Virus record (IMG/VR): IMGVR_UViG_3300036715_000626
Coordinates: 141,016-205,015 of that record
Source: a virus
Length of the DNA: 64,000 bases
Reading direction: 5' to 3' (one strand)
Position 1 is the stretch's first letter, and every line of letters starts with the position of its first letter. Position numbers and translations under genes: made by a program. Of this stretch, positions 7,337 to 59,625 are shown piece by piece. The notes under the pieces are model-generated. The model saw nothing but the letters and a program-made list of their open reading frames with translations, was not told where the DNA came from and made no database searches.

Positions 7337-7858
7337 ATGCCATACGTAAACTTACGTTTGTCTACTAATTTTACATTAGACGAACTTACTGATTCTGCTA
7401 ACCATCCCGATCTTGTACCTGGTAACAGAGCAGAAATTGCTTCTAAACCAGAGCTAATTAAAAACATAACTGATCTAGCAGTACATGTATTACAACCACT
7501 TCATGATGCGTTATCAAAACATTTTGGTAAAACGGTATCGGTGTTCGTATCGTCTGGATACCGTGGAACCGTTTTAAATGTAAAAGTAGGTGGAAGTCCT
7601 ACTGGAGCACACCCGCGTGGTCACGGAGCTGATATTAATGTACATGAGTTTAGTGTCGATGATTTGTTTCAGTTTATTAAAGATAACTTGAATATCTTTA
7701 ATGGTTGGTTAGATAAATGTATCATCGAGAAAGTTGGTGATAAAGAATGGATACATATTTCTGCAGATATTCCAGAGAATGCTCGATGTGAGTTCTATAC
7801 CACTAATGATGGTAAGAAATATGACCTAGTGTATAAAGGTCTTGTCGCTAAGAAATAA
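7337..7858 (+). CDS. M15 family peptidase (endolysin or envelope peptidase)
   Basis: The 173-residue product carries the zinc ligands of D,D- or L,D-carboxypeptidase-like M15 enzymes. These are H92-x-x-G-x-G-A-D99 (HPRGHGAD) and a second histidine in EWIHIS (H140). An SSGYRG segment before them is typical of the fold. It has no signal peptide, so export would need a holin or virion delivery. It is convergent with two other cell-wall enzymes, a permuted NlpC/P60-like protein and a GH108 muramidase. It probably cleaves peptidoglycan cross-links during lysis or entry. Confidence 0.8.
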   Translation: MPYVNLRLSTNFTLDELTDSANHPDLVPGNRAEIASKPELIKNITDLAVHVLQPLHDALSKHFGKTVSVFVSSGYRGTVLNVKVGGSPTGAHPRGHGADINVHEFSVDDLFQFIKDNLNIFNGWLDKCIIEKVGDKEWIHISADIPENARCEFYTTNDGKKYDLVYKGLVAKK

Positions 7859-7888
7859 GATACAGTACTCCATATGGAGTACTGTATC
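7859..7888. terminator. Bidirectional intrinsic terminator
   Basis: A perfect 30-nt palindrome centred on CATATG starts right at the peptidase stop. It has T-rich tails on both strands (TATTATTTTT on plus, CTTATTTCTT on minus) and serves the convergent genes ending at 7858 and 7891. Confidence 0.8.
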
Positions 7889-7890
7889 TA

Positions 7891-8337
7891 TTATTTTTCG
7901 TTAAATGTGTATTGTAACAATTTCAATAAGTCTTCCGGAGAGAACTTATTGGGAACATAATATCCATGTATTACTTCAGCCTTTAATAAGGCAGCTAATA
8001 CAAACTCACTGCAGAACCATTTAGAAGTACTTTGGTGTCCGGCATTAATAATCTGCGATAAGAAGATACCAGACCAATCATAATCACAACCAAGTTCATC
8101 CTCACAGTATTCTAGTATGTTCTCTAATTCTTCATCAGTAACTGATATAGGAAATAACTCGTAATCAGTTATTACAATATCAACTGTCTTACGTGTTCCT
8201 TTAAATGGAACCGCACCATACATAATTCCTTCTATCAAGAACTCTACGTGAGAAGTAGTTCCTTTAGTCCAGAATCTAATAAGTGTATCTAATAGATTAC
8301 CTTTAGCAGTATAGAATGCTATATGGATAGTTCGCAT
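7891..8337 (-). CDS. Permuted NlpC/P60-like (YiiX/LRAT-type) hydrolase
   Basis: The 148-residue product has the circularly permuted papain-like arrangement. A catalytic histidine comes early in TSHVEF (H30) and the nucleophilic cysteine later in KWFCSEFV (C109). Such enzymes hydrolyse amide or thioester bonds in peptidoglycan or lipids. There is no signal peptide. It begins 1 nt after the muramidase stop, so the two are co-translated and probably act together on the host envelope. An alternative role is processing of virion or host proteins. Confidence 0.7.
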   Translation of the reverse strand: MRTIHIAFYTAKGNLLDTLIRFWTKGTTSHVEFLIEGIMYGAVPFKGTRKTVDIVITDYELFPISVTDEELENILEYCEDELGCDYDWSGIFLSQIINAGHQSTSKWFCSEFVLAALLKAEVIHGYYVPNKFSPEDLLKLLQYTFNEK

Positions 8338-28093: not shown

Positions 28094-28123
28094 GACTACA
28101 TACCGCATCTGCGGTATGTAGTC
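28094..28123. terminator. Bidirectional intrinsic terminator
   Basis: A 14-bp perfect stem (GACTACATACCGCA) with a 2-nt loop lies between convergent genes. The minus-strand tail is TTATTTTTTC. The stem half CTACATACC recurs in the terminators at 38783 and 39316. Confidence 0.8.
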
Positions 28124-28752
28124 TAGTATTTAAACACGTAACCTGATGCATTTGACAAACTATCAATATCCGTAACGTTAATGTCTTGAGTACCGTCATT
28201 ATTAATGATGTATACTTTAAGATAGTCACCGCTCTTAATAATTTTAAAAACATATTTAGGTATATCAGAAGTTTTTAAACTACCATTAGAACCAAAAGTA
28301 CCAGACACCACAGTTGTCTTACCGAGGTCTAATGTTAAAGCACGTTCTTTTTCTTCTAATGATTTCCAGTTACCACGGTTATTAGAATAGTATTGTGGTA
28401 TCATGTTCGCCATAGAAAAACTCTCATATTGCGAGCTAGTAGTCGGCATATTCCCACACGGAGCTAAATGACCCTTATCGTACTCACTATTTACGAAGTT
28501 ATGTAATATATGTGTGTTAAGTTTAGGGTCCTCGTGAAATGCGTCCACTCTTGGTACATTATCTGCTTTACGTAAGTTAGCTGCTGTTAAGTCCTCAACG
28601 CTATAAACTGATCTATTTAGATCATTCGAGTAACAAGTTGTAAAATGTGTATATTTAACGCATTTAACTGTGTAAGGTGAAGTTATTGAGATAAACTCGC
28701 TAGCCAACATGTTACTATATATCAATAGTAAAAGAAAAAAGATCTTAATCAT
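28123..28752 (-). CDS. Exported DNA/RNA non-specific endonuclease (NUC1 type)
   Basis: The 209-residue product has a signal peptide (hydrophobic residues 4-17) and then an Endonuclease_NS domain. The catalytic motif is DKGHLAP, a common DRGH variant with the general-base histidine. The metal-binding asparagine block is MANMIPQ ... NRGNW. These enzymes cut DNA and RNA without sequence specificity using one magnesium ion. The signal peptide implies action in the periplasm or outside, not on the phage's own cytoplasmic DNA. A terminator at 28791 separates it from upstream genes. Confidence 0.85.
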   Translation of the reverse strand: MIKIFFLLLLIYSNMLASEFISITSPYTVKCVKYTHFTTCYSNDLNRSVYSVEDLTAANLRKADNVPRVDAFHEDPKLNTHILHNFVNSEYDKGHLAPCGNMPTTSSQYESFSMANMIPQYYSNNRGNWKSLEEKERALTLDLGKTTVVSGTFGSNGSLKTSDIPKYVFKIIKSGDYLKVYIINNDGTQDINVTDIDSLSNASGYVFKY

Positions 28753-35942: not shown

Positions 35943-36410
35943 TTATTTAATTTTAGCCAGAAGTTGTTTTACTACTTTGCCTATCTCTTTAGGTATAGCA
36001 TCGTATACCATTTCTATTGGTAACATATCATATTGTTGTTCCAATCCTGATATATCTACCATACCAATAACACCGTCTCTTACCGTGTCGATAGCAGTGT
36101 AATAATCATTTTGCGATAGATTATACATAAACGCAGAACATATTACATAACCACCGGCTTGAACCATATTAAAAATTCCTTCCATCAGTTCTTTAAATAT
36201 TACAGATGAAAATATCTGACCTATCTTAATCGATGTTTGTTCGGGGTCTGTACCTACATCACTTAGTAATAACGCAACATCTTTCTCCATATTGTTATCT
36301 ATAATGATAACTGTGTATCCTCGTTTAACAAGAACACGTTTAATATAGATAGAAACTATTGCACTAATAACTGGGTCATTTTCAACAACCGCTACTATAT
36401 TACCTACCAT
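35943..36410 (-). CDS. Hypothetical protein
   Basis: The 155-residue product is alpha/beta-looking, with an N-terminal strand (NIVAVVENDPV) and a second strand (YTVIIIDNN) that suggest a Rossmann-like fold. No P-loop or other catalytic motif is visible. It lies between thymidylate kinase and the AAA ATPase, all closely spaced on the minus strand, so it may serve DNA metabolism. Family is not recognised. Confidence 0.65.
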   Translation of the reverse strand: MVGNIVAVVENDPVISAIVSIYIKRVLVKRGYTVIIIDNNMEKDVALLLSDVGTDPEQTSIKIGQIFSSVIFKELMEGIFNMVQAGGYVICSAFMYNLSQNDYYTAIDTVRDGVIGMVDISGLEQQYDMLPIEMVYDAIPKEIGKVVKQLLAKIK

Positions 36411-47781: not shown

Positions 47782-50151
47782 TTAAACCACCTTTGTTAAT
47801 ATTGTTCGTAAACGTTTGATTCGGTTCTCAGCTTGTACTGCTACCATTTTTTCTTGGATAACTCTAAATGAGTAAGCAGTAGCTACTTTGTTATAATCCA
47901 CGGTCATACTCATTTCAACTTCACTAGCAATATAAGCTTGTTTAATAAGCTGCGTACCACCATCTATCACATGTGCGGTATAAGGTAATACAGTTGCTTC
48001 GATTAGTCCATTGTACATATGCTCAATTGTTTCCCAACCATCGGCAAATGGTGCTAAATAAATATTACTCACCCCAGTGTTACCAGAGGTATTAACCATA
48101 CCACCCGCTAAATAAATACCGGATTTAGTTACAAATAACGCACTGTTTGTTAATAATACTGGAAGATCACTAATCTGAGTTAACGTAATAACACTTCCAG
48201 GCGCTACTGGGTTGTTATCTGTATCTATATCGAAATAGTATACTGAATTAGTTATAGTGGTGCCGTTAGTGTTACCACCTATTAAGTATACTCTATTCTT
48301 AGTTTGAACTATACTGGCTATTACTTTATTAAAAGGTAATATTGCATATAGTGTCCACGAGCTTAACAATCCATTAGCATCGATAGTTGCTTTATACACA
48401 CTGTTAACGGTAGTATAGTTAGACATAGCCCCGCCAACTAAGAATACGTTATTACCAGAAACAAACATTCTAGAATAACCTAAAGCCGCAGGTAATGCAT
48501 TACTGTTAGTAGACCAAGAACCTAAATCTCCTGTAACAGGATCTATTGTAGCACGCATAATACTGTTTACTGCTTGCAAGATTCCGTTAACTGTTTGATC
48601 CCCACCTATAACATAGAGATGAGAATTAGTTATCAATAACTGTGTTTTGGCAATAGCTATAGGCATATTACCATATATTTCGAAACTACTTATAGTTCCG
48701 TCCGAAAGAATGGTAGCTTTTAAGATAGCTGCTAGCGCGGTACTACCATTAGCACCACCCATAATATACACATTATTCTTAATAATAGCTATTCTACCCG
48801 CATACATTGCTATAGGAATAGTTCCGTATAACGTAAAGTCGCCTATAATTCCATTAGTATCAATAGGCGCTGAATAAATAGTGTTTACAGGAACCTCGCT
48901 ACCAGCGCTTCCGCCTACAATGAACGCATGGTTATTAGTAGTAAATGTCGTACCGCCATAAAGATTTGCTGGTAAATTACCGATATCACCCCAAACTAAA
49001 TCAGTTACCGTAGAAGGTTGGTTTTGATTTTCATAATGATAATTGTTAAAGTATTGACCTTTACAATATAAACTGTTAGAACAGTTAATATTAGGATCAA
49101 TATAGGTAACTGTTCCTAAACTACCATCAATAGCTTCCCACCCATTATCCTGGGTGATATCATCAACATATACAGTAGTACCGGTTACATCGCCATAGAC
49201 AGTTACATCAGTAGCCGTGGATGTTAATCTTCTATTAAAGGTTCCTACTTTAGGAGACATCCCAAACACAGCTTTATCTGGTTCGACTGATATGTACACA
49301 GCAGGATCGATAGTGAGATAATTTGTAGCGGTCTTAGCTTTAAGGATAGGTAATGCAAAATATTCTGTTACAACACCAGCTATTACTGGAGATGTTTCAG
49401 TTTTTACTATATCGTATTGACCGTTACCGTTAACAACCACGCTACCTATTTTAACCATTACTTTGACACCATCTACAGTAACTAACGCATTATCGCCAGC
49501 AGTCAATGGCTCAGCAAGTGTGAGCAGTGTATCTGTATCGGTAACTAGTATATTAACAGGGTTAAGCATAAGCTGGCTTCTGTGTGTTACCCAATCTGTA
49601 TCTGTATCTTCTTGGTAATACTGATAAACTGCTATTTCACCATCAGTTGGCGATAGATCGGCGTCTAATCCGTTCTGCCATATCACATAGTCATCCAGAG
49701 TTTCCATCAGTTGTAAATTACGCACGGCGACAGTTGTCACAGTGCTAACTGTTTTACTAGACATCTTAGCCGATATGAACAATGATGTGTCAGTAGTACT
49801 TGTTACTGGGTGAAATACCACTGTCAATACACCATTATAAACAAAACCTGATATAACATCTTCATTCTGGGATTCAACAGTATATGTTATATCGTGTGAG
49901 TAGTTGGTAATAGTCACATTGACGCTACTACCTTCTGAATACTGTAGTGTATATGTAGACAGTGTAGGAGCATCTGTAACGCTAATAACAGAAAAAATAG
50001 CCAATGTTTCATTGACGTCTACATCAGTAATTAATATACCTGGCTTTACAGGAAAGTATAAGGTCTGGTTTGAAAGCATAGATGTTGGTGTTATAACAAT
50101 ATTCTTATCAGTAACAGCATCGTGCATCGGAATATTTGGTAGTGACGGCAT
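47782..50151 (-). CDS. Kelch-like beta-propeller fibre protein, paralogue 1
   Basis: The 789-residue product has an N-terminal attachment region (about 1-170) ending in a conserved WQNGLDADL block. An adaptor domain follows, then a kelch-like propeller at about residues 385-700. Its repeated unit is hydrophobics, then AxIVGG, then VxxxP IDxNGxIGxWxxxGxLP. The C-terminal 70 residues are helical. It is the most diverged of three tandem paralogues and is 0-1 nt from the next. It is probably a host-surface-binding tail fibre or adhesin. Confidence 0.72.
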   Translation of the reverse strand: MPSLPNIPMHDAVTDKNIVITPTSMLSNQTLYFPVKPGILITDVDVNETLAIFSVISVTDAPTLSTYTLQYSEGSSVNVTITNYSHDITYTVESQNEDVISGFVYNGVLTVVFHPVTSTTDTSLFISAKMSSKTVSTVTTVAVRNLQLMETLDDYVIWQNGLDADLSPTDGEIAVYQYYQEDTDTDWVTHRSQLMLNPVNILVTDTDTLLTLAEPLTAGDNALVTVDGVKVMVKIGSVVVNGNGQYDIVKTETSPVIAGVVTEYFALPILKAKTATNYLTIDPAVYISVEPDKAVFGMSPKVGTFNRRLTSTATDVTVYGDVTGTTVYVDDITQDNGWEAIDGSLGTVTYIDPNINCSNSLYCKGQYFNNYHYENQNQPSTVTDLVWGDIGNLPANLYGGTTFTTNNHAFIVGGSAGSEVPVNTIYSAPIDTNGIIGDFTLYGTIPIAMYAGRIAIIKNNVYIMGGANGSTALAAILKATILSDGTISSFEIYGNMPIAIAKTQLLITNSHLYVIGGDQTVNGILQAVNSIMRATIDPVTGDLGSWSTNSNALPAALGYSRMFVSGNNVFLVGGAMSNYTTVNSVYKATIDANGLLSSWTLYAILPFNKVIASIVQTKNRVYLIGGNTNGTTITNSVYYFDIDTDNNPVAPGSVITLTQISDLPVLLTNSALFVTKSGIYLAGGMVNTSGNTGVSNIYLAPFADGWETIEHMYNGLIEATVLPYTAHVIDGGTQLIKQAYIASEVEMSMTVDYNKVATAYSFRVIQEKMVAVQAENRIKRLRTILTKVV

Positions 50152-52418
50152 TACATACTCCTTTTAGTAAGATATGTTGTGATATTCCGTATAGCTGCTA
50201 ATGCAGTTTGTGGTAATGTAAGGGTTAAGTAGTTTTGTATATATCTAAACGACGGCAACGGCGTTATACTCGTAAAGGATACTTTAATATCTGTATTAGC
50301 ATAGCTAACTGACGCTTTAATATCTTTAACATAAGCAACTGCAGATAAATCATTACTAATACCTGTTCTAGTACTTAGTTCTGGTAGAACATAAGTTTTA
50401 TCAATATTATCAGTAATTACTGGCGTGGTTAATGCTTTCTTAAAACGATATGCTGTTTTACCTGCGGTATTGTCATTAAGACGGCAATCCCAGCCATCTA
50501 CTGTAGCTGAATAGTATTTTTCTAAGGTGTTACCGAAGATATATAATTTATTATTAATAATGAAAGTTTTCATTTTATTATCAGCAGTCCAAACACTCGT
50601 CATTAAGCTGAGATTATCGCTATCTAAAAGAATTGTTGGGGTTGTTAAATATCCGTCGGTATCTACTATAAATTTTATTATTTTAGTATGCCCATTTTCT
50701 ACAGCAGTTGAGTGTGTATGGTTTTGATAATAAACGGGTTTTCTAATAATCATATAGACATAATTACTAGTTACAATTACGTTAACATGTTTAATAGAGT
50801 ATATAGCGTTATTATCTACGAGTTCCATTCCTGAATATATCCAAGAACCTATACTTCCAGAACTATCAATGTCGCTGTAATATAAAAAATAATTTGCAGA
50901 ACCATTTATAATAACTTCAGAACCATCTCCAATAACTGCGTATACTCTGGATTTTGTTTTAAATATGTTATGTACGTAATAGTTATTCTGTCCTGTGAAT
51001 CCTGGTGCTACTACACTACCAACCAGAGCGTCTAAATAACCGTCATTAGTTAAACTGTAAAGACTACCACTCCACCCAGTTCCGTCAGTGTTACCGTAAC
51101 CATAAATGTATAATTTACCTTTAGTTACTACAAATGAAGGATCTGATAAACGTGGTGAAGTATTGTTAATAATCACCCAGCTACCAATATGTCCGTTAAT
51201 ATCGATAACAGCAGAGAGTAAATAACTTAATAACCCACCTGTAGACAATGTTCCTAGCTGACTAGTTATTATGTTGCTACCACCAGTTATATATATTTTA
51301 TCTTTAAGCTGTACAAGCGCCGCTTCATACATAGCTACTGGTAACCCAGACACACCGGTATCTTCTACCCAAGGGGTAGATGGTATAGATCCATCAGGAT
51401 TAAGCTCTTTGTAAAAAGAACGATTTGTAACAGCAGCTATCCATCCTTGTATCGGGTCGGTAAAATAGTTGTATGTATAAATTCCTCTAGTACAACCACC
51501 AAATCTGTATATACGACTACTGGTAACTATAGACATACTGTCAGCATAACCAATATCAGTACTTGACGTTATTGTAGGTAAATTTGGTAACGTTGAATCA
51601 TATGTCACCGGATCTATGGTTTTTAACAAATTAGTATTGTTATAGTTATCATAATGAGTAAATTCACAAGGATAACCTAAAAACGCATTGGTATTGTAAC
51701 TTGAATTATCGTTAACTTTAGCGAGATTTAAATTACCCATTGTGGTGTGTACCGCAACATCAGTTCCTACCGGAATTTGTATAGAGGTATTAACATATGT
51801 AGCATCTTCTGATAAAAACACATTATTAGCAGCCAGTACAACATCATTTTGATAGGTCACCCAATCAGTTTCACCTACTCCTTGAGCAGCTACCGATGTT
51901 TCTACAACACTAGCACTTGAATTCAAATCGGTATCAACTCCATTTTGCCAAGTAACCATATTGTCAGCAACGGCAGGAATAACTAGATTATTAATAACGA
52001 TTACATTTTGGCTACTTTGTATTTTACCAGATTCAGTACATGTGATACTTATAGTTCCAGTGGTATCAGTTCGCACTGGTAAGAATGTTACATGGATAAT
52101 ATCGCCAGCTCTGCTAGTGGTAACTAATCCTGATGTGTTGAATATGCTATATTGATTACCTGGAATATAGTTAGTGATAGTTATGTCGACAGTACTGCCT
52201 TCATAGTACGTAAGTGTGTTTGTATTTACTGTAGGTTCGCCTGTAATTATTCCATAACTAAGAGCTGTTAACATGTCATTGAGATCATCTTGAACTAGCA
52301 TAGTACCAGTTCTAGCAGGTAATTGTAATAGGGTGTCTACTGTAATATCAGTATCTGGTTTCAGTTCTATTTTTTTACCAGTCGAAGAATCGACTAGCTT
52401 TATAGTAGAGTTTGGCAT
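50151..52418 (-). CDS. Kelch-like beta-propeller fibre protein, paralogue 2
   Basis: The 755-residue product is closely related to the gene at 52420. Shared segments are a WQNGVDTDL block near residue 155, GYPCEFTHYDNY near residue 245, a KELNPDGSIPSTPW run, and VSGLPVAMYE. The propeller repeats KxxIYITGGS and VDINGHIGSW follow. The C-terminal domain (SVKAY..LP.FR.IQN) is shared too. It probably forms an alternative or partner receptor-binding fibre. Confidence 0.75.
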   Translation of the reverse strand: MPNSTIKLVDSSTGKKIELKPDTDITVDTLLQLPARTGTMLVQDDLNDMLTALSYGIITGEPTVNTNTLTYYEGSTVDITITNYIPGNQYSIFNTSGLVTTSRAGDIIHVTFLPVRTDTTGTISITCTESGKIQSSQNVIVINNLVIPAVADNMVTWQNGVDTDLNSSASVVETSVAAQGVGETDWVTYQNDVVLAANNVFLSEDATYVNTSIQIPVGTDVAVHTTMGNLNLAKVNDNSSYNTNAFLGYPCEFTHYDNYNNTNLLKTIDPVTYDSTLPNLPTITSSTDIGYADSMSIVTSSRIYRFGGCTRGIYTYNYFTDPIQGWIAAVTNRSFYKELNPDGSIPSTPWVEDTGVSGLPVAMYEAALVQLKDKIYITGGSNIITSQLGTLSTGGLLSYLLSAVIDINGHIGSWVIINNTSPRLSDPSFVVTKGKLYIYGYGNTDGTGWSGSLYSLTNDGYLDALVGSVVAPGFTGQNNYYVHNIFKTKSRVYAVIGDGSEVIINGSANYFLYYSDIDSSGSIGSWIYSGMELVDNNAIYSIKHVNVIVTSNYVYMIIRKPVYYQNHTHSTAVENGHTKIIKFIVDTDGYLTTPTILLDSDNLSLMTSVWTADNKMKTFIINNKLYIFGNTLEKYYSATVDGWDCRLNDNTAGKTAYRFKKALTTPVITDNIDKTYVLPELSTRTGISNDLSAVAYVKDIKASVSYANTDIKVSFTSITPLPSFRYIQNYLTLTLPQTALAAIRNITTYLTKRSM

Positions 52419-52419
52419 G

Positions 52420-54609
52420 TTAACCTCGTTTTGTTAAATATGTTCTGATTCTAATAATTACACGCACAGCATTTTTAATAATAACGTTATGCTGCATAGC
52501 TCTAAAACTATTGATAGGTTTATAACCTGCATAATTAATTGTAATCGTATTATTAATTTTAAATGCATCAGCCGTGATAGGTGTTACAGTGTCAATAACG
52601 GAATAAATAAATCTGGCACTAAATGTACCTACTATATCCATAGCTGTTTTAACGCTAAGCTTAGGTAATAAGTATATAGTATTAGGCGTATTTGTTAATA
52701 CCGGTAATGTTTCAAGTTTCTTAAACTTATATTGGCTGGTAAGTGCTGTAGTATCGTTTAATCTACTATTCCAACCATCTACTGTTATATGTAAATATTG
52801 ACTCATATGTTCGTCAAATAGTATAAAAGTGTTATTAATAATAAATACACCACTCCACCATTTAACACTTAATGACCATATACTATTAAATGGTATTGTA
52901 GTAAGTGTACCTAACATGATATTGGTCCCCAGGATTCCATTACTATCAATACTCGACCTACTTAATTTAGTGTAACCGCCATTCGCATCGTGTATTATAA
53001 AATAAACATAATTATTAAATACTAAAGTAGCTAACCCGAAACTACCAGTAGCATACCCAGTAGTACCATAAACACTTGCTGTACCTAATGGTTGTGAAAT
53101 CCACGCACCTATACTCCCATCAGAATTAATTACAGCATAGTAACCATCTGTTATGTATAGTCTAGATTTAGTTTTGAATAAGTAACCTTTCGATTGACTA
53201 CCTGTGTTAGGTAATGTAATAGCGACAAATGATCCCAAGGTACCATCAGTGTTGATATCAAATTTAAAACCCACTCTAGTACTAGAAATAAAGTTACCGG
53301 GAAAAGCTATCAATAACCCAGATAGATACATTTTATTCTTAGTAATAACTATACTAGGTTCTGATATATTAGGAGATACTCCGCTAGAAACCCATGCGCC
53401 AACATGACCGTTAATATCAATAGGAGCTTTATAAATAGTGTTATTAATACCACCACCTGTATAATTTCCTGATGATGTAGTAAAATTATTGCCACCAACC
53501 AAATAAACAGTGTTTTTTAACACTATTAAGCCGAACCCATTTAGTCCTGTTGGTAACCCAGACACACCGGTATCTTCCATCCAAGAGGTAGATGGTATAG
53601 ATCCATCAGGATTAAGCTCTTTGTAATAGGATTTATTTATAGAAGCGCCGACACCGTTAAACACATAGGTATACCCACCAAACTTATATATCCTACTTGA
53701 TGTAATAATAGACCCTGGATTAGCCCATAACGCATTATCTTGTGTATAATATGAATCGCTAGTATTATTAACTGGCGCTGTTAAAATAGCATTATCATAA
53801 TTAACTGGGTCTATAGTTTTTAGTAGGTTATTATTCCAGTAATTGTCGTAATGACTAAATTCGCACGGATACCCTATATATGCTCCAGTAGTAGCATTTA
53901 CGACATCTCCTACCTTAACCACACCAGTATCTACTACAAGCAAATCGTCACCGTTAACAACTGGATCAGTTACAGTTATATAAACGCCATCATCTGCCGT
54001 GAATATATTGTCGCCGGCAATCATTTCTAGTTTATCAGTATACATAACCCAATCAGTCTCGCCATCACCTTGTAACGCAATACCCGTTGAGATTACATCT
54101 AGACCGGATCCTAGATTGGCGCTTGTACCATTCTGCCACATAACTAAATCGTCGGTAACTTCGGCTATATTCATATTGGTAATCGCTACCATAGTTTTAT
54201 AACTTTCAAGTTTACCAGGAGCTGTCATTTTAACAACTAAGTTACAGCTAATATCGATATTTGTAGGAAGAAACGTCAAATAAATATTAGCTCCAGTTCT
54301 CGATACTTGAACGATCCCAGTAGTATCAGCATAAATATTAAAAGTATTGGCAGCATCATAGTTACTAATGGTTACTATAGCTACACTTCCTTCATATTGC
54401 GAAAGAGTTGCTACCGATAGTATAGGTCCAGCAGTTACCATGTTATTATTAAAAGAAGAAATAGCTGCCGTTAAATCGGCTCTTGTTAAGAGTATCCCGT
54501 TTCGAGTAGGCAGCCGTAATGTTAAATCGTTTGGTACTTGATCTGGTAACTGTATCTCCAATAGTTTACCATTTATTTTATTCCGAAAAGTTATTGATTT
54601 AGAAGCCAT
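52420..54609 (-). CDS. Kelch-like beta-propeller fibre protein, paralogue 3
   Basis: The 729-residue product has the same order of parts as the gene at 50151. The N-terminal attachment part includes PTRNGILLTRADL. It then has the WQNGTSANL block, GYPCEFSHYDNY, KELNPDGSIPSTSW, VSGLPTGLNG, kelch-like repeats and a C-terminal helical end. The propeller region differs more than the flanks. It is the first of the three tandem fibres, just after the outer-membrane-protein cassette's terminator. Confidence 0.75.
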   Translation of the reverse strand: MASKSITFRNKINGKLLEIQLPDQVPNDLTLRLPTRNGILLTRADLTAAISSFNNNMVTAGPILSVATLSQYEGSVAIVTISNYDAANTFNIYADTTGIVQVSRTGANIYLTFLPTNIDISCNLVVKMTAPGKLESYKTMVAITNMNIAEVTDDLVMWQNGTSANLGSGLDVISTGIALQGDGETDWVMYTDKLEMIAGDNIFTADDGVYITVTDPVVNGDDLLVVDTGVVKVGDVVNATTGAYIGYPCEFSHYDNYWNNNLLKTIDPVNYDNAILTAPVNNTSDSYYTQDNALWANPGSIITSSRIYKFGGYTYVFNGVGASINKSYYKELNPDGSIPSTSWMEDTGVSGLPTGLNGFGLIVLKNTVYLVGGNNFTTSSGNYTGGGINNTIYKAPIDINGHVGAWVSSGVSPNISEPSIVITKNKMYLSGLLIAFPGNFISSTRVGFKFDINTDGTLGSFVAITLPNTGSQSKGYLFKTKSRLYITDGYYAVINSDGSIGAWISQPLGTASVYGTTGYATGSFGLATLVFNNYVYFIIHDANGGYTKLSRSSIDSNGILGTNIMLGTLTTIPFNSIWSLSVKWWSGVFIINNTFILFDEHMSQYLHITVDGWNSRLNDTTALTSQYKFKKLETLPVLTNTPNTIYLLPKLSVKTAMDIVGTFSARFIYSVIDTVTPITADAFKINNTITINYAGYKPINSFRAMQHNVIIKNAVRVIIRIRTYLTKRG

Positions 54610-54664
54610 AGTGATATCCTAGTTTCAGTATTAATTCATTTATTTGCGTCGCTAAAAATAATGT

Positions 54665-54697
54665 AACAGTACTACCGACATAGTCGGTAGTACTGTT
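54665..54697 (-). terminator. Intrinsic terminator ending the signalling cassette
   Basis: A 15-bp perfect stem (AACAGTACTACCGAC) with an ATA loop is followed on the minus strand by ACATTATTTTTAGCG. It overlaps the stop of the outer membrane protein at 54696. Confidence 0.8.
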
Positions 54698-55886
54698 AGA
54701 AATCTGAATACCATTGTAGCATAATAGAACTTGATGATGTAACACTATCTTTAATAGTATCATTATTACCATATTCAGGAGTAAATCCTTTATAAGTACT
54801 AACTCCATCGGAATCATAATGACAGTATCTTAGTTTAAGTAGGTTATCTTTATTTAGCGATACTCCTATACTGGCGTTAATAGTTGTTCCTATATCAGCA
54901 TACGACAACAGCGATATCGGTTTACCGGCTAATAAACTATGGTATCCAGGAGATTTGTAAGCGTACTCGATTCCGAATGACATATCCTTATTCCAGATGA
55001 CGTCATCTACTTCTTTTTTAAATCCAGCAGTTATACTATAACCAGCTGTGTCATAACCACCAAAGTAATAGCCGTCATCTTCAAAAGGTTTCTTAGTAGG
55101 AGAGAGTTGTTCATTGTCACCAGATGATTTAGTTAATACCACACTACCATAATAAGTAAATCCAGTATTCTCTTCGTCACTATATGTAAAAGCTCCTCCA
55201 AGTATATCTGAAGCTATAATAGGGTTACTATTGATAACTTGTTCTATCTTGTAATAGTTAACTTCTAAATACAGATTATCCAACTGATGTTTATCTATAA
55301 TAAAATAACCACCGGTATTTTTATAACTATCGTAGGAAACCGGACCGCTACTAGCATCATAATCGTAGAATGATTTAAAATATTTATCAAAGTTTATCTT
55401 ACCACCGCTTAAAGTATGTTCCTTAGTTGGTTTATAGGTAAGTATGATTCCTTGCATTGTTACATCGTTTACATTATACAATCCGTTACCTAAACGAGTA
55501 CCATTATATGCCATTTCATAAAGAGTGCCTTTTCTAAAAGGAAACAAACCAACTGACACAGAAACATCTTTAAAGATGTTATATGTATAATACAGTTCAT
55601 TCAGATAGATAGCTTTCATCTTAGTGACATCATCTTTAACAATGCTGTTGTATACAGAATTATCTGTATAATATATACCTGGTGAAAAAGTAAACTTACT
55701 ATTACAAAAGTAGAAATCGTTATTAACAACAACGTCTACTGTATCAATATGCGAAGATATGTTCTTCCCATTCTCTTTATAAGTAGATAACGCGCTTGTT
55801 AGCTCTGCATTACCAGACATGTCGTATTTGAAATCAACAGGGTATAAAAAAGAGAAACATAAAACCATAAAAACGATGAACTTCAT
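54696..55886 (-). CDS. Outer-membrane-barrel-like protein
   Basis: The 396-residue product has a signal peptide (residues 1-16, hydrophobic core FIVFMVLCFSFL). The rest is many alternating amphipathic strands with short turns and it ends in a terminal Phe (QWYSDF), the usual sign of a beta-barrel substrate of the BAM complex. It lacks a lipobox. The style resembles porin-like proteins of Campylobacterota, but I cannot assign a family. Its start overlaps the stop of the secreted protein (ATGA), so the two are coupled. It is the last gene of the two-component cassette. Confidence 0.75.
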   Translation of the reverse strand: MKFIVFMVLCFSFLYPVDFKYDMSGNAELTSALSTYKENGKNISSHIDTVDVVVNNDFYFCNSKFTFSPGIYYTDNSVYNSIVKDDVTKMKAIYLNELYYTYNIFKDVSVSVGLFPFRKGTLYEMAYNGTRLGNGLYNVNDVTMQGIILTYKPTKEHTLSGGKINFDKYFKSFYDYDASSGPVSYDSYKNTGGYFIIDKHQLDNLYLEVNYYKIEQVINSNPIIASDILGGAFTYSDEENTGFTYYGSVVLTKSSGDNEQLSPTKKPFEDDGYYFGGYDTAGYSITAGFKKEVDDVIWNKDMSFGIEYAYKSPGYHSLLAGKPISLLSYADIGTTINASIGVSLNKDNLLKLRYCHYDSDGVSTYKGFTPEYGNNDTIKDSVTSSSSIMLQWYSDF

Positions 55887-56173
55887 CGTGGATCCTCCAA
55901 GTCGGTATTTTCAAAACTTCTATAACTAACAGAGGTTACTTCTTTATCGATACACTCTTTTAGTAGATGTTTATCTTTCACAGATAAGGGTAATTTTGTA
56001 TACAATTGTAATTTATTATTATTATAGGCCCGTAACCAGCCTTTCGGCTTTTTTATATTCATGTCAATACCGTATTTATTAAATACATTTTCGCAGTATT
56101 GTTCTGGTTGGTCTGGGTATATGTTAGTTGCTATTAAACAGTTAAAAAATAATAATAGGATAAATTTATTCAT
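55883..56173 (-). CDS. Small secreted/periplasmic protein
   Basis: The 96-residue product has a clear signal peptide (hydrophobic residues 4-16). The mature part has two cysteines (CEN near residue 27 and KECID near residue 74) that could form a disulfide. It is translationally coupled to the outer membrane protein by a 4-nt overlap and lies directly after the sensor kinase. It might be a ligand-binding or partner protein for the kinase or the barrel; this is inference from position. Confidence 0.7.
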   Translation of the reverse strand: MNKFILLLFFNCLIATNIYPDQPEQYCENVFNKYGIDMNIKKPKGWLRAYNNNKLQLYTKLPLSVKDKHLLKECIDKEVTSVSYRSFENTDLEDPR

Positions 56174-56193
56174 CTAGCATTCCATTAAAGTAT

Positions 56194-57594
56194 TTAATCA
56201 TCGCGTCTCGGTTTAACAGGAATAGTTATTTTGAACAACGTCCCATCTTTAGACGTATTTATCAGCTTAACATCCCCACCGGAATTAACAGCGATTCCTT
56301 TTGTAAATGATAGACCAGCTCCTCTTGGGACAATACTGTCCTTAAGTATACCAATCTTAACCATGAATTTAAGGAACCAAGATCTATTATTAATATTTTC
56401 ACCTTGCATAGTTTTAGTAGTATACCCATAGCTAAATATTTCATTTGTTTCTACTATATTACCAGCTCTATCTCTGATACCTCTACCGTTATCGGAGAAA
56501 TAAATATTAAGTTTATACTTACTTGGTAATAACTCAGCTCCGATAGTGATGACCGTAGCTTTAGCTTCTATACTATTAGTAGTATGAGCATGTATTATAT
56601 TTAATAGATCGCCATTAGTCATACCATAACCGACAGCATAATTCTTTAATATATCGAGGTTATTATAAACCACGGTTACTTTATTAACCTTCAAACTGTT
56701 GTTTGTTTTTATAATATTATCTATAATACTATGTATCGCTGTATTACCGTTACTGTATTTTATATGTTTACTGGCAGCCATTTGATTTAATGGTGCTTCT
56801 AAACGTTCTATAGCAAACTTCATCTTTAAGAAATAGTTCTTAGCTATATCGTCATTAATTAGATCTTTATTGCGTAAAACACAATCAGCACATTTTGTAG
56901 TATCTACATCAGTTTCAGAGGTGCATAGATTACATATCCCGGACTTACTATATGAACATGGGAATAGTGTAGAATATAAGTCCCATACTAATGTTTTAAT
57001 AAGAGCTACTGGCATACCCATTTCATGGTGCGCAGATTCTGACATATCTCTCTGTAGTTTATTTTCTAATCCTATCTTATACGACGTTTTCTCAATAGCG
57101 GCATTACGGTTTTCTATGTATAGCTGTTTAAGAAATATGTAGCTATACAATAAAAAAAATATGAACGAGTTTAAATACATAATATTAAGAAATGTATCTA
57201 TGTAACGCTTATCGTTAACAACGATCGTATGATCATTATATCTAAGTACGGTCTTAAGATCAGCAGTAAAACTTCCCAAATATTTAGCCTGATCTGGTTG
57301 AGCAGGAGTTAATAATAAATACCCATCTTTACCTAAGATGTAATTCATATTACCATCTGTAATAGTTTCACATGACACTACACTACACATAAGACTAAGG
57401 TCTTCTCCTTCTCTACTTACAATAGTAGAGAGCTTCTTAATATAATCAGTCATAGTTCCTTTATAAATAGAATGCACTGTAGATACTTCTATTATTAGGA
57501 AAATTATAAAAAACATTATATAGTACTTAATAAATTTATATATTGTTTTGCTATTAAAAAACAGCATGAACTTATCAATGTCTATTTGTAACAT
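56194..57594 (-). CDS. Membrane sensor histidine kinase with cysteine cluster
   Basis: The 466-residue product has transmembrane helices at about 24-40 and 137-156 around a 95-residue periplasmic region with two cysteines (C70, C75). An H-box follows (AHHEMGMP, probable phospho-acceptor H190). A cysteine cluster (C213, C221, C224, C235, C238) sits between the two expected DHp helices. The GHKL ATPase motifs are complete: N-box LLNIIHAHTTN, G1 SDNGRGI, F-box FSYGYTTK, G2 GAGLSFTKG. It should autophosphorylate and pass phosphate to the receiver encoded 4 nt upstream. The cysteine insert could bind zinc or sense redox state. Confidence 0.88.
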   Translation of the reverse strand: MLQIDIDKFMLFFNSKTIYKFIKYYIMFFIIFLIIEVSTVHSIYKGTMTDYIKKLSTIVSREGEDLSLMCSVVSCETITDGNMNYILGKDGYLLLTPAQPDQAKYLGSFTADLKTVLRYNDHTIVVNDKRYIDTFLNIMYLNSFIFFLLYSYIFLKQLYIENRNAAIEKTSYKIGLENKLQRDMSESAHHEMGMPVALIKTLVWDLYSTLFPCSYSKSGICNLCTSETDVDTTKCADCVLRNKDLINDDIAKNYFLKMKFAIERLEAPLNQMAASKHIKYSNGNTAIHSIIDNIIKTNNSLKVNKVTVVYNNLDILKNYAVGYGMTNGDLLNIIHAHTTNSIEAKATVITIGAELLPSKYKLNIYFSDNGRGIRDRAGNIVETNEIFSYGYTTKTMQGENINNRSWFLKFMVKIGILKDSIVPRGAGLSFTKGIAVNSGGDVKLINTSKDGTLFKITIPVKPRRDD

Positions 57595-57598
57595 GACC

Positions 57599-58228
57599 TT
57601 ACTCGTACAAGAAACTGTTTATACGGGATACTCTATCAGAGTTTTTATTCATATAGTAGTTGTTAATATTTAAACCGGTTACTGTTTCAAATTTATTAAT
57701 ATAATACATAATATCCGCATTGCGGCGGTTCATGGTATGCGCAGTACTAAATAGTATTTTAGCATTAGGGTTCTTATCTAGAATAAGAATAGCGATGTCC
57801 ACACCATCGAATTCTACATAAGCTCCATCTTGCAGCTTAACGATATAACCAAGTGTTATATCTAAGATAGCGTAATCGACTTTACCATTTTCAATACTAC
57901 AATACTTATGTGCCATTAACCCTGCTCTAGGATCAAGACATTTAACCAAAGTGAAATCGTTTAAAACATCCTTCTGGTACAAACGTTTTATATTTTTAAA
58001 ATCTACTGAATAAAGTATGTATGTTTCTGGAATATCATCCATAATAAATAGATATGGTTTGTCACAGCCTACACAAGATACTTCTGCTGAGGGAACACTA
58101 GTATAGTCAATAGTTGTATCATATACTGTTTTAGCATGTGTTTCTGTTATAGCTTCCAGTACTGGAGATATAGCCGAAGTATTATCTTTCTTAAATAGTC
58201 TGGTTAATAGCTTTATATATTTTAGCAT
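57599..58228 (-). CDS. Stand-alone response-regulator receiver protein
   Basis: The 209-residue product has the receiver-domain residues in order. These are an acidic pair IMDDIPE (D64, D65), a phospho-acceptor strand YAILDITLG (D123), ILFSTAH (T162) and a conserved lysine in YYMNKNSD (K195). Spacings are longer than in CheY, with an insertion after the acceptor strand. There is no DNA-binding output domain. The N-terminal 55 residues hold a CVGC pair. It ends 4 nt before the kinase, so the two form a classic receiver-kinase gene pair. Confidence 0.72.
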   Translation of the reverse strand: MLKYIKLLTRLFKKDNTSAISPVLEAITETHAKTVYDTTIDYTSVPSAEVSCVGCDKPYLFIMDDIPETYILYSVDFKNIKRLYQKDVLNDFTLVKCLDPRAGLMAHKYCSIENGKVDYAILDITLGYIVKLQDGAYVEFDGVDIAILILDKNPNAKILFSTAHTMNRRNADIMYYINKFETVTGLNINNYYMNKNSDRVSRINSFLYE

Positions 58229-58229
58229 T

Positions 58230-58670
58230 TTAGTTTCCTGTAAAGATTGATCGAATCATATCTAGTATTTCTTTTGTCAATGTTGGATTTATGTAATGTA
58301 TACCTACCAATATAACTATTAAAATACCGATAGAAATTATAATTTTACCGCTATCCGGAAAATCACTAAAAAACCCTTTACTAGGTTTAACAACAACAGG
58401 TGCAGCTTCAGAATTAACATTCTTTTTTAAACTAGAAAGCATTTCAATGTTAGCATCTATTAATTTATTTAAAGTTACTATTTGACTAAACTTCATAGTT
58501 TGCATAGAGGATTTATAATTACTATGTAACAATATTAATGTTTCGAATACTTCATCAGTTACATCTTTTAATTGTACTAAACGTGTAAAGTCATCATTGT
58601 TATCATTTTCAATATGAGTGTCATATATTTCATCTTTTAGAGCAAGCAATCTTTTTTCTACATTATCCAT
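58230..58670 (-). CDS. Membrane-anchored coiled-coil protein
   Basis: The 146-residue product is helical and charged in residues 1-95 (heptad pattern) and has one transmembrane segment near residues 113-132 (IIISIGILIVILVGIHYI). A short tail follows. The soluble part is predicted on the N-terminal side of the anchor. It ends 1 nt before the receiver's stop-to-start gap and probably starts the cassette. It might tether or partner the receiver at the membrane; this is inference only. Confidence 0.68.
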   Translation of the reverse strand: MDNVEKRLLALKDEIYDTHIENDNNDDFTRLVQLKDVTDEVFETLILLHSNYKSSMQTMKFSQIVTLNKLIDANIEMLSSLKKNVNSEAAPVVVKPSKGFFSDFPDSGKIIISIGILIVILVGIHYINPTLTKEILDMIRSIFTGN

Positions 58671-58720
58671 CTTTTTCTCCCTTAAAATCGTTAAATAATC
58701 AATAAATACTCAAAGATTAA

Positions 58721-58749
58721 TACAACACATAGCATAGCTATGTGTTGTA
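58721..58749 (-). terminator. Intrinsic terminator upstream of the cassette
   Basis: A 13-bp perfect stem (TACAACACATAGC) with an ATA loop sits after the stop of the holin-like gene at 58757. The minus-strand tail is TTAATCTTTGAGTATTT. Confidence 0.7.
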
Positions 58750-58756
58750 TCATATG

Positions 58757-59062
58757 TTATTTAGTAACGGTTTTCTCGATGTTAGATAAAACATTTGTTA
58801 TTGGGTTATCCGTACTAGCACTTGTTGATGTGTAGAATCCGTACGCTGCTGCTAGTGCTGCACATATTGTACCATAGAGTACATTGGTTGCTCCGTCTGG
58901 TTTACCCCATGCAAATATCATAACAATACCAATAGTAGATATTACCCATGTTACAAGGATAGTTAAAAGGACTGCTTTTCTAAATCGTGTAGGTTCACCT
59001 TCAGTCCATAGTATAAACTTACGAACATAGGTATTTTCGTTTTTAATAGTTTCTTCTTCCAC
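58757..59062 (-). CDS. Holin-like small membrane protein
   Basis: The 101-residue product has two hydrophobic segments, near residues 27-50 (AVLLTILVTWVISTIGIVMIF) and 62-80 (GTICAALAAAYGF), and a charged N-terminus. Size and topology resemble phage holins, but it is not near the lysin genes at 7337-8911. It could equally be an accessory membrane protein of the region. It is a single gene between two terminators. Confidence 0.6.
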   Translation of the reverse strand: MEEETIKNENTYVRKFILWTEGEPTRFRKAVLLTILVTWVISTIGIVMIFAWGKPDGATNVLYGTICAALAAAYGFYTSTSASTDNPITNVLSNIEKTVTK

Positions 59063-59112
59063 ACAGTATCCTTAATTTTAAAATAATCACTAAAGATCAA
59101 AAAAATAACCTA

Positions 59113-59138
59113 GTATGAAGGTCATATGACCTTCATAC
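59113..59138 (-). terminator. Intrinsic terminator
   Basis: A perfect 26-nt palindrome (GTATGAAGGTCATATGACC...) is followed on the minus strand by TAGGTTATTTTTTTGATC. It overlaps the stop of the gene at 59122. Confidence 0.8.
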
Positions 59139-59625
59139 CATTTTTAAGATTAAAGATCATGATTAGCGCATTATTAATCACGATCTCTATTACAGGGGGT
59201 TTCCCGAAGTCATAATCGACTAACTCTTTCTCCGGTACTTGTTTAGAACCCGTATTAATCGGGATCGTGTACATACCGGGATACTCACCTCTGGTAATGC
59301 TACCATTGGCAAGATATAGAACATTTATACCATCAGTGTATAAATCATTCTCTTCGGTGATTTTAATAACATCATTACTAGCACTACTAGTAAAATGTTC
59401 TATAAGTTCCCCTAAGTGACCTATTCGGTAAATATCGTGGTTAAAGATATTTTCATCTTTAGCTAAACGCTTACCGGAATTAATATAAAACAAAATACTA
59501 CCAACACTTCCATAACGTGCTGTATACAAATTGGTATAGAACACCGATCCAAAGATACGATGTTCTACTTGCTTAATTAGGACAATACTGTCTATCTTAT
59601 TTTGTTCTACTACAAATATGGACAT
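59122..59625 (-). CDS. Hypothetical protein
   Basis: The product has 167 residues from the ATG at 59625, which follows GAAGGAGGACAGT. A longer frame up to 59862 is rejected because it would cross the terminator at 59688 and overlap the helicase gene. It is soluble and beta-rich with no recognised motif. It forms a single-gene unit between two terminators. Confidence 0.65.
   Translation of the reverse strand: MSIFVVEQNKIDSIVLIKQVEHRIFGSVFYTNLYTARYGSVGSILFYINSGKRLAKDENIFNHDIYRIGHLGELIEHFTSSASNDVIKITEENDLYTDGINVLYLANGSITRGEYPGMYTIPINTGSKQVPEKELVDYDFGKPPVIEIVINNALIMIFNLKNGMKVI

Follow-up and report, generated by a model that had tools for sequence, protein, structure and literature searches.

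Do five tightly packed genes of a jumbo phage, two of which resemble a sensor kinase and its receiver, form a signalling system of the phage's own, and what might such a system control? The window analysed here, a stretch of 64,000 nucleotides, covers bases 141016-205015 of a virus record 205 kb long. By sequence, its owner is a phiKZ-like jumbo phage: the protein encoded at 61647-63659 matches the phage RNA polymerase family phrog_3015 (PHROGs, E 1e-127) and, by tblastn, 268 phage records, and its gene is followed by a helicase gene at the same place as in phiKZ-like phages. Comparison of topoisomerase I led to no coherent host phylum. The window also codes for a DNA/RNA non-specific endonuclease with a signal peptide (28123-28752, minus strand; PF01223, E 5e-32), an exported nuclease in a phiKZ-like phage that is possibly active on periplasmic DNA.

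The cassette occupies positions 54696-58670 on the minus strand, between the helicase gene and the genes of three successive large paralogue-like proteins (789, 755 and 729 amino acids; 47782-54609, minus strand) with kelch-like stretches, which are probably tail or fibre proteins. All five packed ORFs announced by the earlier note were found there. In gene order, 1, 4 and 20 nt separate the members of the first three pairs, and those of the fourth overlap by 4 nt. The note had also placed terminators at both ends. The downstream one is sound: an intrinsic terminator with a 16-bp stem and a T tail (54664-54698, minus strand) overlaps the stop codon of the last gene and closes the cassette. The upstream boundary is weaker than first claimed, since the T tail of the near-perfect palindromic hairpin at 58720-58750 was scored on the plus strand only. 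This makes the place in the cassette transcript of the gene directly upstream (58757-59062, minus strand) uncertain, and that gene is a possible cassette member; an additional hairpin at 59111-59140 was scored on both strands. The gene codes for a 101-long small membrane protein with one detected transmembrane segment, whose matches in PHROGs (phrog_1544, E 0.0022; phrog_1528, holin, E 0.13) amount to a weak holin-family similarity. Comparison shows it to be unrelated to the small membrane protein found beside one of the cassettes described below, that of G084.

Single-sequence homologue searches of viral contigs and phage records returned nothing. Use of RNA polymerase beta' as a hook gave 80 phiKZ-like loci, in which the cassette is absent from the vicinity of the polymerase gene. 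Over 85 phiKZ-like records and reference phages, HATPase_c was matched by a single one, G001 (IMGVR_UViG_3300028534_000022), the 84 others being without a match; Response_reg gave no match over 40 phiKZ-like records. G001, reached via the polymerase hook, has a polymerase 48% identical to that of the window phage and repeats at L089:4510-7118 the order of the first three cassette genes, with an anchored protein of 169 aa, a receiver of 225 aa and a kinase of 473 aa (28%, 51% and 36% identity, respectively, over the aligned parts). An alignment of receivers led to G041 (IMGVR_UViG_3300026521_000148), whose region L092:9523-13468 has the five genes arranged as in the window, and to G042 (IMGVR_UViG_3300026544_000001), where an anchored protein, a receiver, a 203-aa protein with two transmembrane segments and a kinase succeed one another at L094:9270-12207. 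A wider alignment added G083 (IMGVR_UViG_3300007623_000015), with coil protein, receiver and kinase, and G084 (IMGVR_UViG_3300024260_000002), again with all five genes in order (L099:9372-13280).

Anchored protein, receiver and kinase thus follow the same order in six of six viral records, the first of them being homologous to the window protein in four of the five relatives, and the full five-gene order, which the earlier note had proposed to look for in related phages, is found in G041 and G084 besides the window. Three of the records (window, G001 and G041) are phiKZ-like. Among the 195 ORFs of the window phage, 27 have a match in G001 and 35 in G041, as counted in the retrieved parts of the records; on the same basis G084 shares ten (four from the cassette), G083 three (two from the cassette) and G042 a single one, which is a cassette gene. 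Since these last three phages share almost nothing else with the window phage, the cassette is kept as a unit, and the recurrence of its gene order in other phages bears out the idea of a phage-owned system that behaves as one. It is almost certainly a conserved functional unit. Its proteins have diverged to about 20-50% identity, and the pairwise identities of coil protein, receiver and kinase co-vary (r 0.77-0.85 over 15 pairs, which are non-independent). The cassette is located behind an M15 peptidase gene in G001, about 13 kb beyond the tail-type genes that come directly after the helicase gene, next to a ribonucleotide reductase gene in G041, behind an endolysin gene in G042, behind PhoH in G083 and between virion-type genes in G084. 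This change of position from record to record, together with the absence of HATPase_c from the 84 other records, indicates that it is rare, accessory and horizontally exchanged.

Several genes of these records were observed alongside. The 203-aa protein inserted between receiver and kinase in G042 (L094 10399-11010, plus strand) has eight cysteines besides its two transmembrane segments and resembles a separate sensor subunit; upstream of the same cassette lies the gene of an HD_5 domain protein (7358-7960, plus strand; E 4e-24). The kinase gene of G083 is directly followed by two more stand-alone receivers (L098 8174-8581 and 8547-8978, plus strand; PF00072, E 2e-9 and 9e-5), which makes three receivers in a row; in a profile comparison the extra receiver of G083 gave no alignment to the cassette receiver. 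G001 has tail-region proteins made of many near-identical repeats of the type LTASDAxDxDxFGxSVxLSxDGLVLVVGA (L008 14340-21986, plus strand), and in the ribonucleotide reductase gene of G041 (L092 13509-17063, minus strand) the reductase sequence is interrupted by an apparent intein several hundred residues long. In the window, a 155-aa protein (35943-36410, minus strand) is superficially similar to the start of a receiver and has no Pfam match; its gene adjoins that of an AAA-type ATPase with homologues in G001 and G041.

The kinase gene (56194-57594, minus strand) codes for a 466-long protein. In the record-wide frame search it scores 24.3 bits to HATPase_c, and 27.5 bits with its frame neighbours, for a cut-off of 26.4, while the kinase ORF alone gives 22.5 bits; it is the only HATPase_c match within the 205-kb record, and its relatives reach 30-46 bits. 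HisKA is found below cut-off in the kinases of G083 and G084 (E 0.0025 and 0.0012). The kinase of G042 is homologous to the other cassette kinases (E 5e-22). Alignment of the six homologues reveals that H190, the predicted phospho-acceptor in the DHp helix, and E191, N327, N340, D368, N369, G370 and G372 are identical in all of them, as are F387, G425, G427, T452 and F454. Hydropathy predicts transmembrane helices at 25-43 and 135-153 with an extracytoplasmic domain of about 90 residues in between, carrying C70 and C75. An extracytoplasmic Cys pair is present in all six kinases (C-x4-C in five, C-x5-C in the sixth). Close to its tip, the DHp hairpin likewise has cysteines in every one of them, five in the window kinase. 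On this sequence evidence the protein is, as had been proposed, a histidine kinase of the membrane whose catalytic boxes (N, G1, F and G2) are complete. Classical HisKA kinases have Thr or Asn at position H+4 for phosphatase activity; the residue is M, L and M in the phiKZ-like members, against T, T and N in the other three, which suggests that the phiKZ-like versions may be biased to the kinase reaction.

The 209-long protein encoded upstream (57599-58228, minus strand) had been read in the earlier note as a stand-alone receiver keeping its Asp pair, acceptor Asp, Thr and Lys in order, a reading that depends on its fold. In the AlphaFold model (pLDDT 80.9, six aligned sequences as input), strands and helices come in receiver order, with a hairpin insert after strand 3 and residues 1-35 unresolved, and the best PDB fold matches are all receivers (ArcA, Spo0F, DrrB, TrrA and CheY; E 3e-4 and up); a PDB search by sequence gave nothing meaningful. 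The acid pair D64 and D65, the acceptor D123, T162 and K195 are identical in the six aligned homologues. Pfam yields no match to the G001 homologue and no Response_reg match to the window protein. The G084 homologue matches Response_reg at E 3e-4, and the best homologue scores 21.2 bits for a curated cut-off of 30.2, which is not reached. Fold and residues decide here, so that we call the protein a divergent receiver despite the sub-cut-off Pfam score. The one Pfam near-hit of the window protein is to cREC (PF20274; E 0.17, 13 bits against 27), a divergent jumbo-phage receiver for which, reportedly, no association with a histidine kinase has ever been seen (PMC7824862). The two have in common a receiver-like domain in a large phage, but such a very weak match and the adjoining partner kinase rule out that the window receiver is cREC. 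Neither Pfam nor the model reveals an output domain: the window protein consists of the receiver domain and an N-terminal extension. A strongly amphipathic N-terminal stretch, seen by hydrophobic moment in four of the six receivers, makes attachment to the membrane plausible. No relative of the receiver turned up when the genomes of 84,980 bacterial and archaeal species were scanned by pattern. In the viral structure library, isolated receivers and kinases occur in other phages and giant viruses, and receiver domains as such are therefore not new in viruses.

The first gene of the cassette (58230-58670, minus strand) encodes a 146-aa protein with a helical, coiled-coil-like cytoplasmic N-terminal part and one transmembrane helix near the carboxyl terminus (110-128), predicted by hydropathy to be tail-anchored. 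Homologues occupy the same position in G001, G041, G083 and G084, the proteins of the last two being homologous to those of the phiKZ-like group with an hhalign E of 3e-8. G042 has instead a 156-aa anchored protein of the same layout, whose homology is not provable by comparison and which we count as an analogue; the relation of an 84-aa anchored protein of the same phage is not provable either. A similarity of the coil protein to Ni-SOD, far below cut-off, was dropped as an effect of helical composition.

The last two genes encode exported proteins. The 96-aa protein (55883-56173, minus strand) has a signal peptide and a Cys pair, C27/C74, kept in its relatives, which lie at the same place in G041 and G084. 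The 396-aa protein (54696-55886, minus strand), likewise with homologues in G041 and G084, has a signal peptide and a C-terminal Phe; with too few homologues, its predicted structure has a pLDDT of 28. It has no direct Pfam hit of its own and matches at E 2e-14 the G084 homologue, which belongs to DUF3373 (PF11853; 39.4 bits, cut-off 26.1). The suspected resemblance to an outer-membrane barrel is thereby supported through the G084 homologue, the signal peptide and the terminal Phe, the window protein differing from the DUF3373 family in being tied to a phage signalling cassette. Members of DUF3373 are frequent among Campylobacterota, a group in which the host of the phage might lie. The pair is kept jointly and in order in three records (window, G041 and G084) and is absent from the other three (G001, G042 and G083), so these proteins would be accessory rather than essential envelope outputs.

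Judged by residues and predicted fold, the cassette belongs to the two-component systems, its receiver being a divergent one. It shares with canonical pairs of a membrane histidine kinase (ZraS/DcuS-like) and a single-domain receiver (Spo0F/CheY-like) the HATPase_c boxes, the H-box His, the receiver fold and the five receiver residues. It differs from them in being encoded by a phage, in the N-terminal extension, hairpin insert and sub-cut-off Pfam score of its receiver, and in the constant presence of an anchored helical protein beside the latter. PADLOC defence models have no match among the window proteins, SspD reaching E 0.0042 on one receiver homologue only, and none of the known defence systems corresponds to the cassette. 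The literature covered, which took in only a minority of subscription journals and preprints, yielded no account of a comparable gene set; in a jumbo-phage review of 2026 no kinase is mentioned (PMC13282480).

We tentatively privilege the hypothesis of a phage-owned, horizontally exchanged and membrane-confined two-component module that adjusts late envelope events, foremost the timing of lysis. The kinase would read the state of the periplasm or of the inner membrane via its small Cys-pair sensor domain, autophosphorylate on H190 and hand the phosphoryl group on to receiver residue D123. Such a transfer is suggested by active sites that are complete and invariant, and a working phosphorelay is, from the sequences, very probable. 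The receiver would act by protein contact, for which gene order designates as the likeliest partner the helical, tail-anchored product of the preceding gene. The lack of an output domain and the anchored helical neighbour present in every record make protein contact likelier than transcription, and a non-transcriptional output at the membrane is, on balance, the more credible one. In the cassettes that have them, the barrel of DUF3373 type and the secreted Cys protein may carry sensing or effect as far as the outer membrane. The module would probably serve to adjust late envelope events, first of all host lysis timing; action late in infection, confinement to the membrane and an effect on lysis are what we infer for the module as a whole.

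The lysis part of this proposal draws on the genes that surround the cassette in the relatives. In G001 only 23 nt lie between the end of an M15 peptidase gene and the coil gene, and M15 endolysin genes (phrog_465, E 4e-37 and 5e-34) end 345 nt before the anchored-protein gene in G042 and about 1.5 kb before the cassette in G083; two Pfam models find a single M15 gene in each of these three contigs. An M15 gene is thus present at most 1.6 kb upstream of the cassette in three of the four contigs that have one. With random placement, at least three of four M15 genes would fall within 1.53 kb with a chance of about 2e-4, a figure attached to a post hoc hypothesis and to phages that are non-independent, and for these reasons the association is a lead and not a proof. 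On the other side, the M15 gene of the window lies 47 kb from the cassette, and the two Pfam models have no match in G084. Upstream of the G041 cassette are a papain-like protein and small membrane proteins. The suggestion of lysis timing thus draws support from the neighbourhoods of three relatives and not from the window itself; taken alone, lysis timing is a possible but somewhat doubtful target of the cassette. A hypothetical parallel is lysis inhibition of phage T4, which involves the holin T and the antiholins RI and RIII and in which periplasmic RI senses superinfection (PMC8385771). Common to both would be periplasmic sensing that sets the time of lysis and a small secreted protein, but the T4 system operates by direct binding without phosphorylation, whereas the cassette has a kinase and a receiver. 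No lysis family of PHROGs, the T4-type ones (RI, RIII and T) included, was matched above chance by the five cassette proteins.

The exported pair could also be taken as the heart of the matter. The kinase would then monitor arriving phages or envelope damage, and the receiver would gate a change of the outer membrane by the barrel and the secreted protein, such as receptor masking, exclusion or altered permeability. That the pair accompanies the core with its order kept in three records, and that the barrel belongs to an outer-membrane family, agree with such control of superinfection or of the surface. Half of the six records have the core without the pair, however, and PHROGs shows no resemblance between either member of the pair and a known exclusion protein, and we consider this explanation unlikely. 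The single-domain architecture of the receiver, Spo0F and CheY being among its best fold matches, and its lack of an output domain would suit equally a phosphate sink or relay coupled to host kinases or phosphotransfer proteins, by which host regulation would be altered during infection. Yet the kinase gene follows the receiver gene in all six records and the co-varying identities point to mutual partners, while the amphipathic N-terminus and the anchored neighbour suggest a local role at the membrane, so that rewiring of the host, too, seems improbable. Capture of sensor kinase genes by phages is documented, phoR being an example (PMC10987575), and DUF3373 is listed among bacterial outer-membrane pore-forming families (PMC4827864), but a host sensor operon with a porin, recently picked up and without a role for the phage, is very improbable in view of the scan of bacterial and archaeal genomes without a receiver relative and of a deep divergence with kept gene order and active sites, which speaks for a long stay in phages under selection. 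The phage-borne PhoR/PhoB auxiliary genes (PMC10987575) are near copies of host regulators, unlike the cassette receiver, whose lack of a DNA-binding output domain rules out that the cassette is of this type.

The membrane-confined module that we privilege bears on how phage sensor kinases, usually viewed as stray captured host genes, are understood: a kinase-receiver pair whose neighbours are kept across several lineages of phages, and for whose receiver no bacterial relative was found, would amount to signalling that phages maintain for their own use. In its widest form, which we regard as rather unlikely, large phages would pass among themselves an autonomous phosphorelay by which the envelope of the infected cell is read and the time of lysis is set, via a membrane-anchored effector and not via transcription. 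If true, this would be a route to lysis timing unlike the T4 antiholins or the peptide systems of lysogeny. Should the cassette set lysis time or respond to superinfection, it would illustrate how a virus monitors the envelope of its host in real time, and phage decisions would become testable by standard two-component biochemistry with His and Asp mutants.
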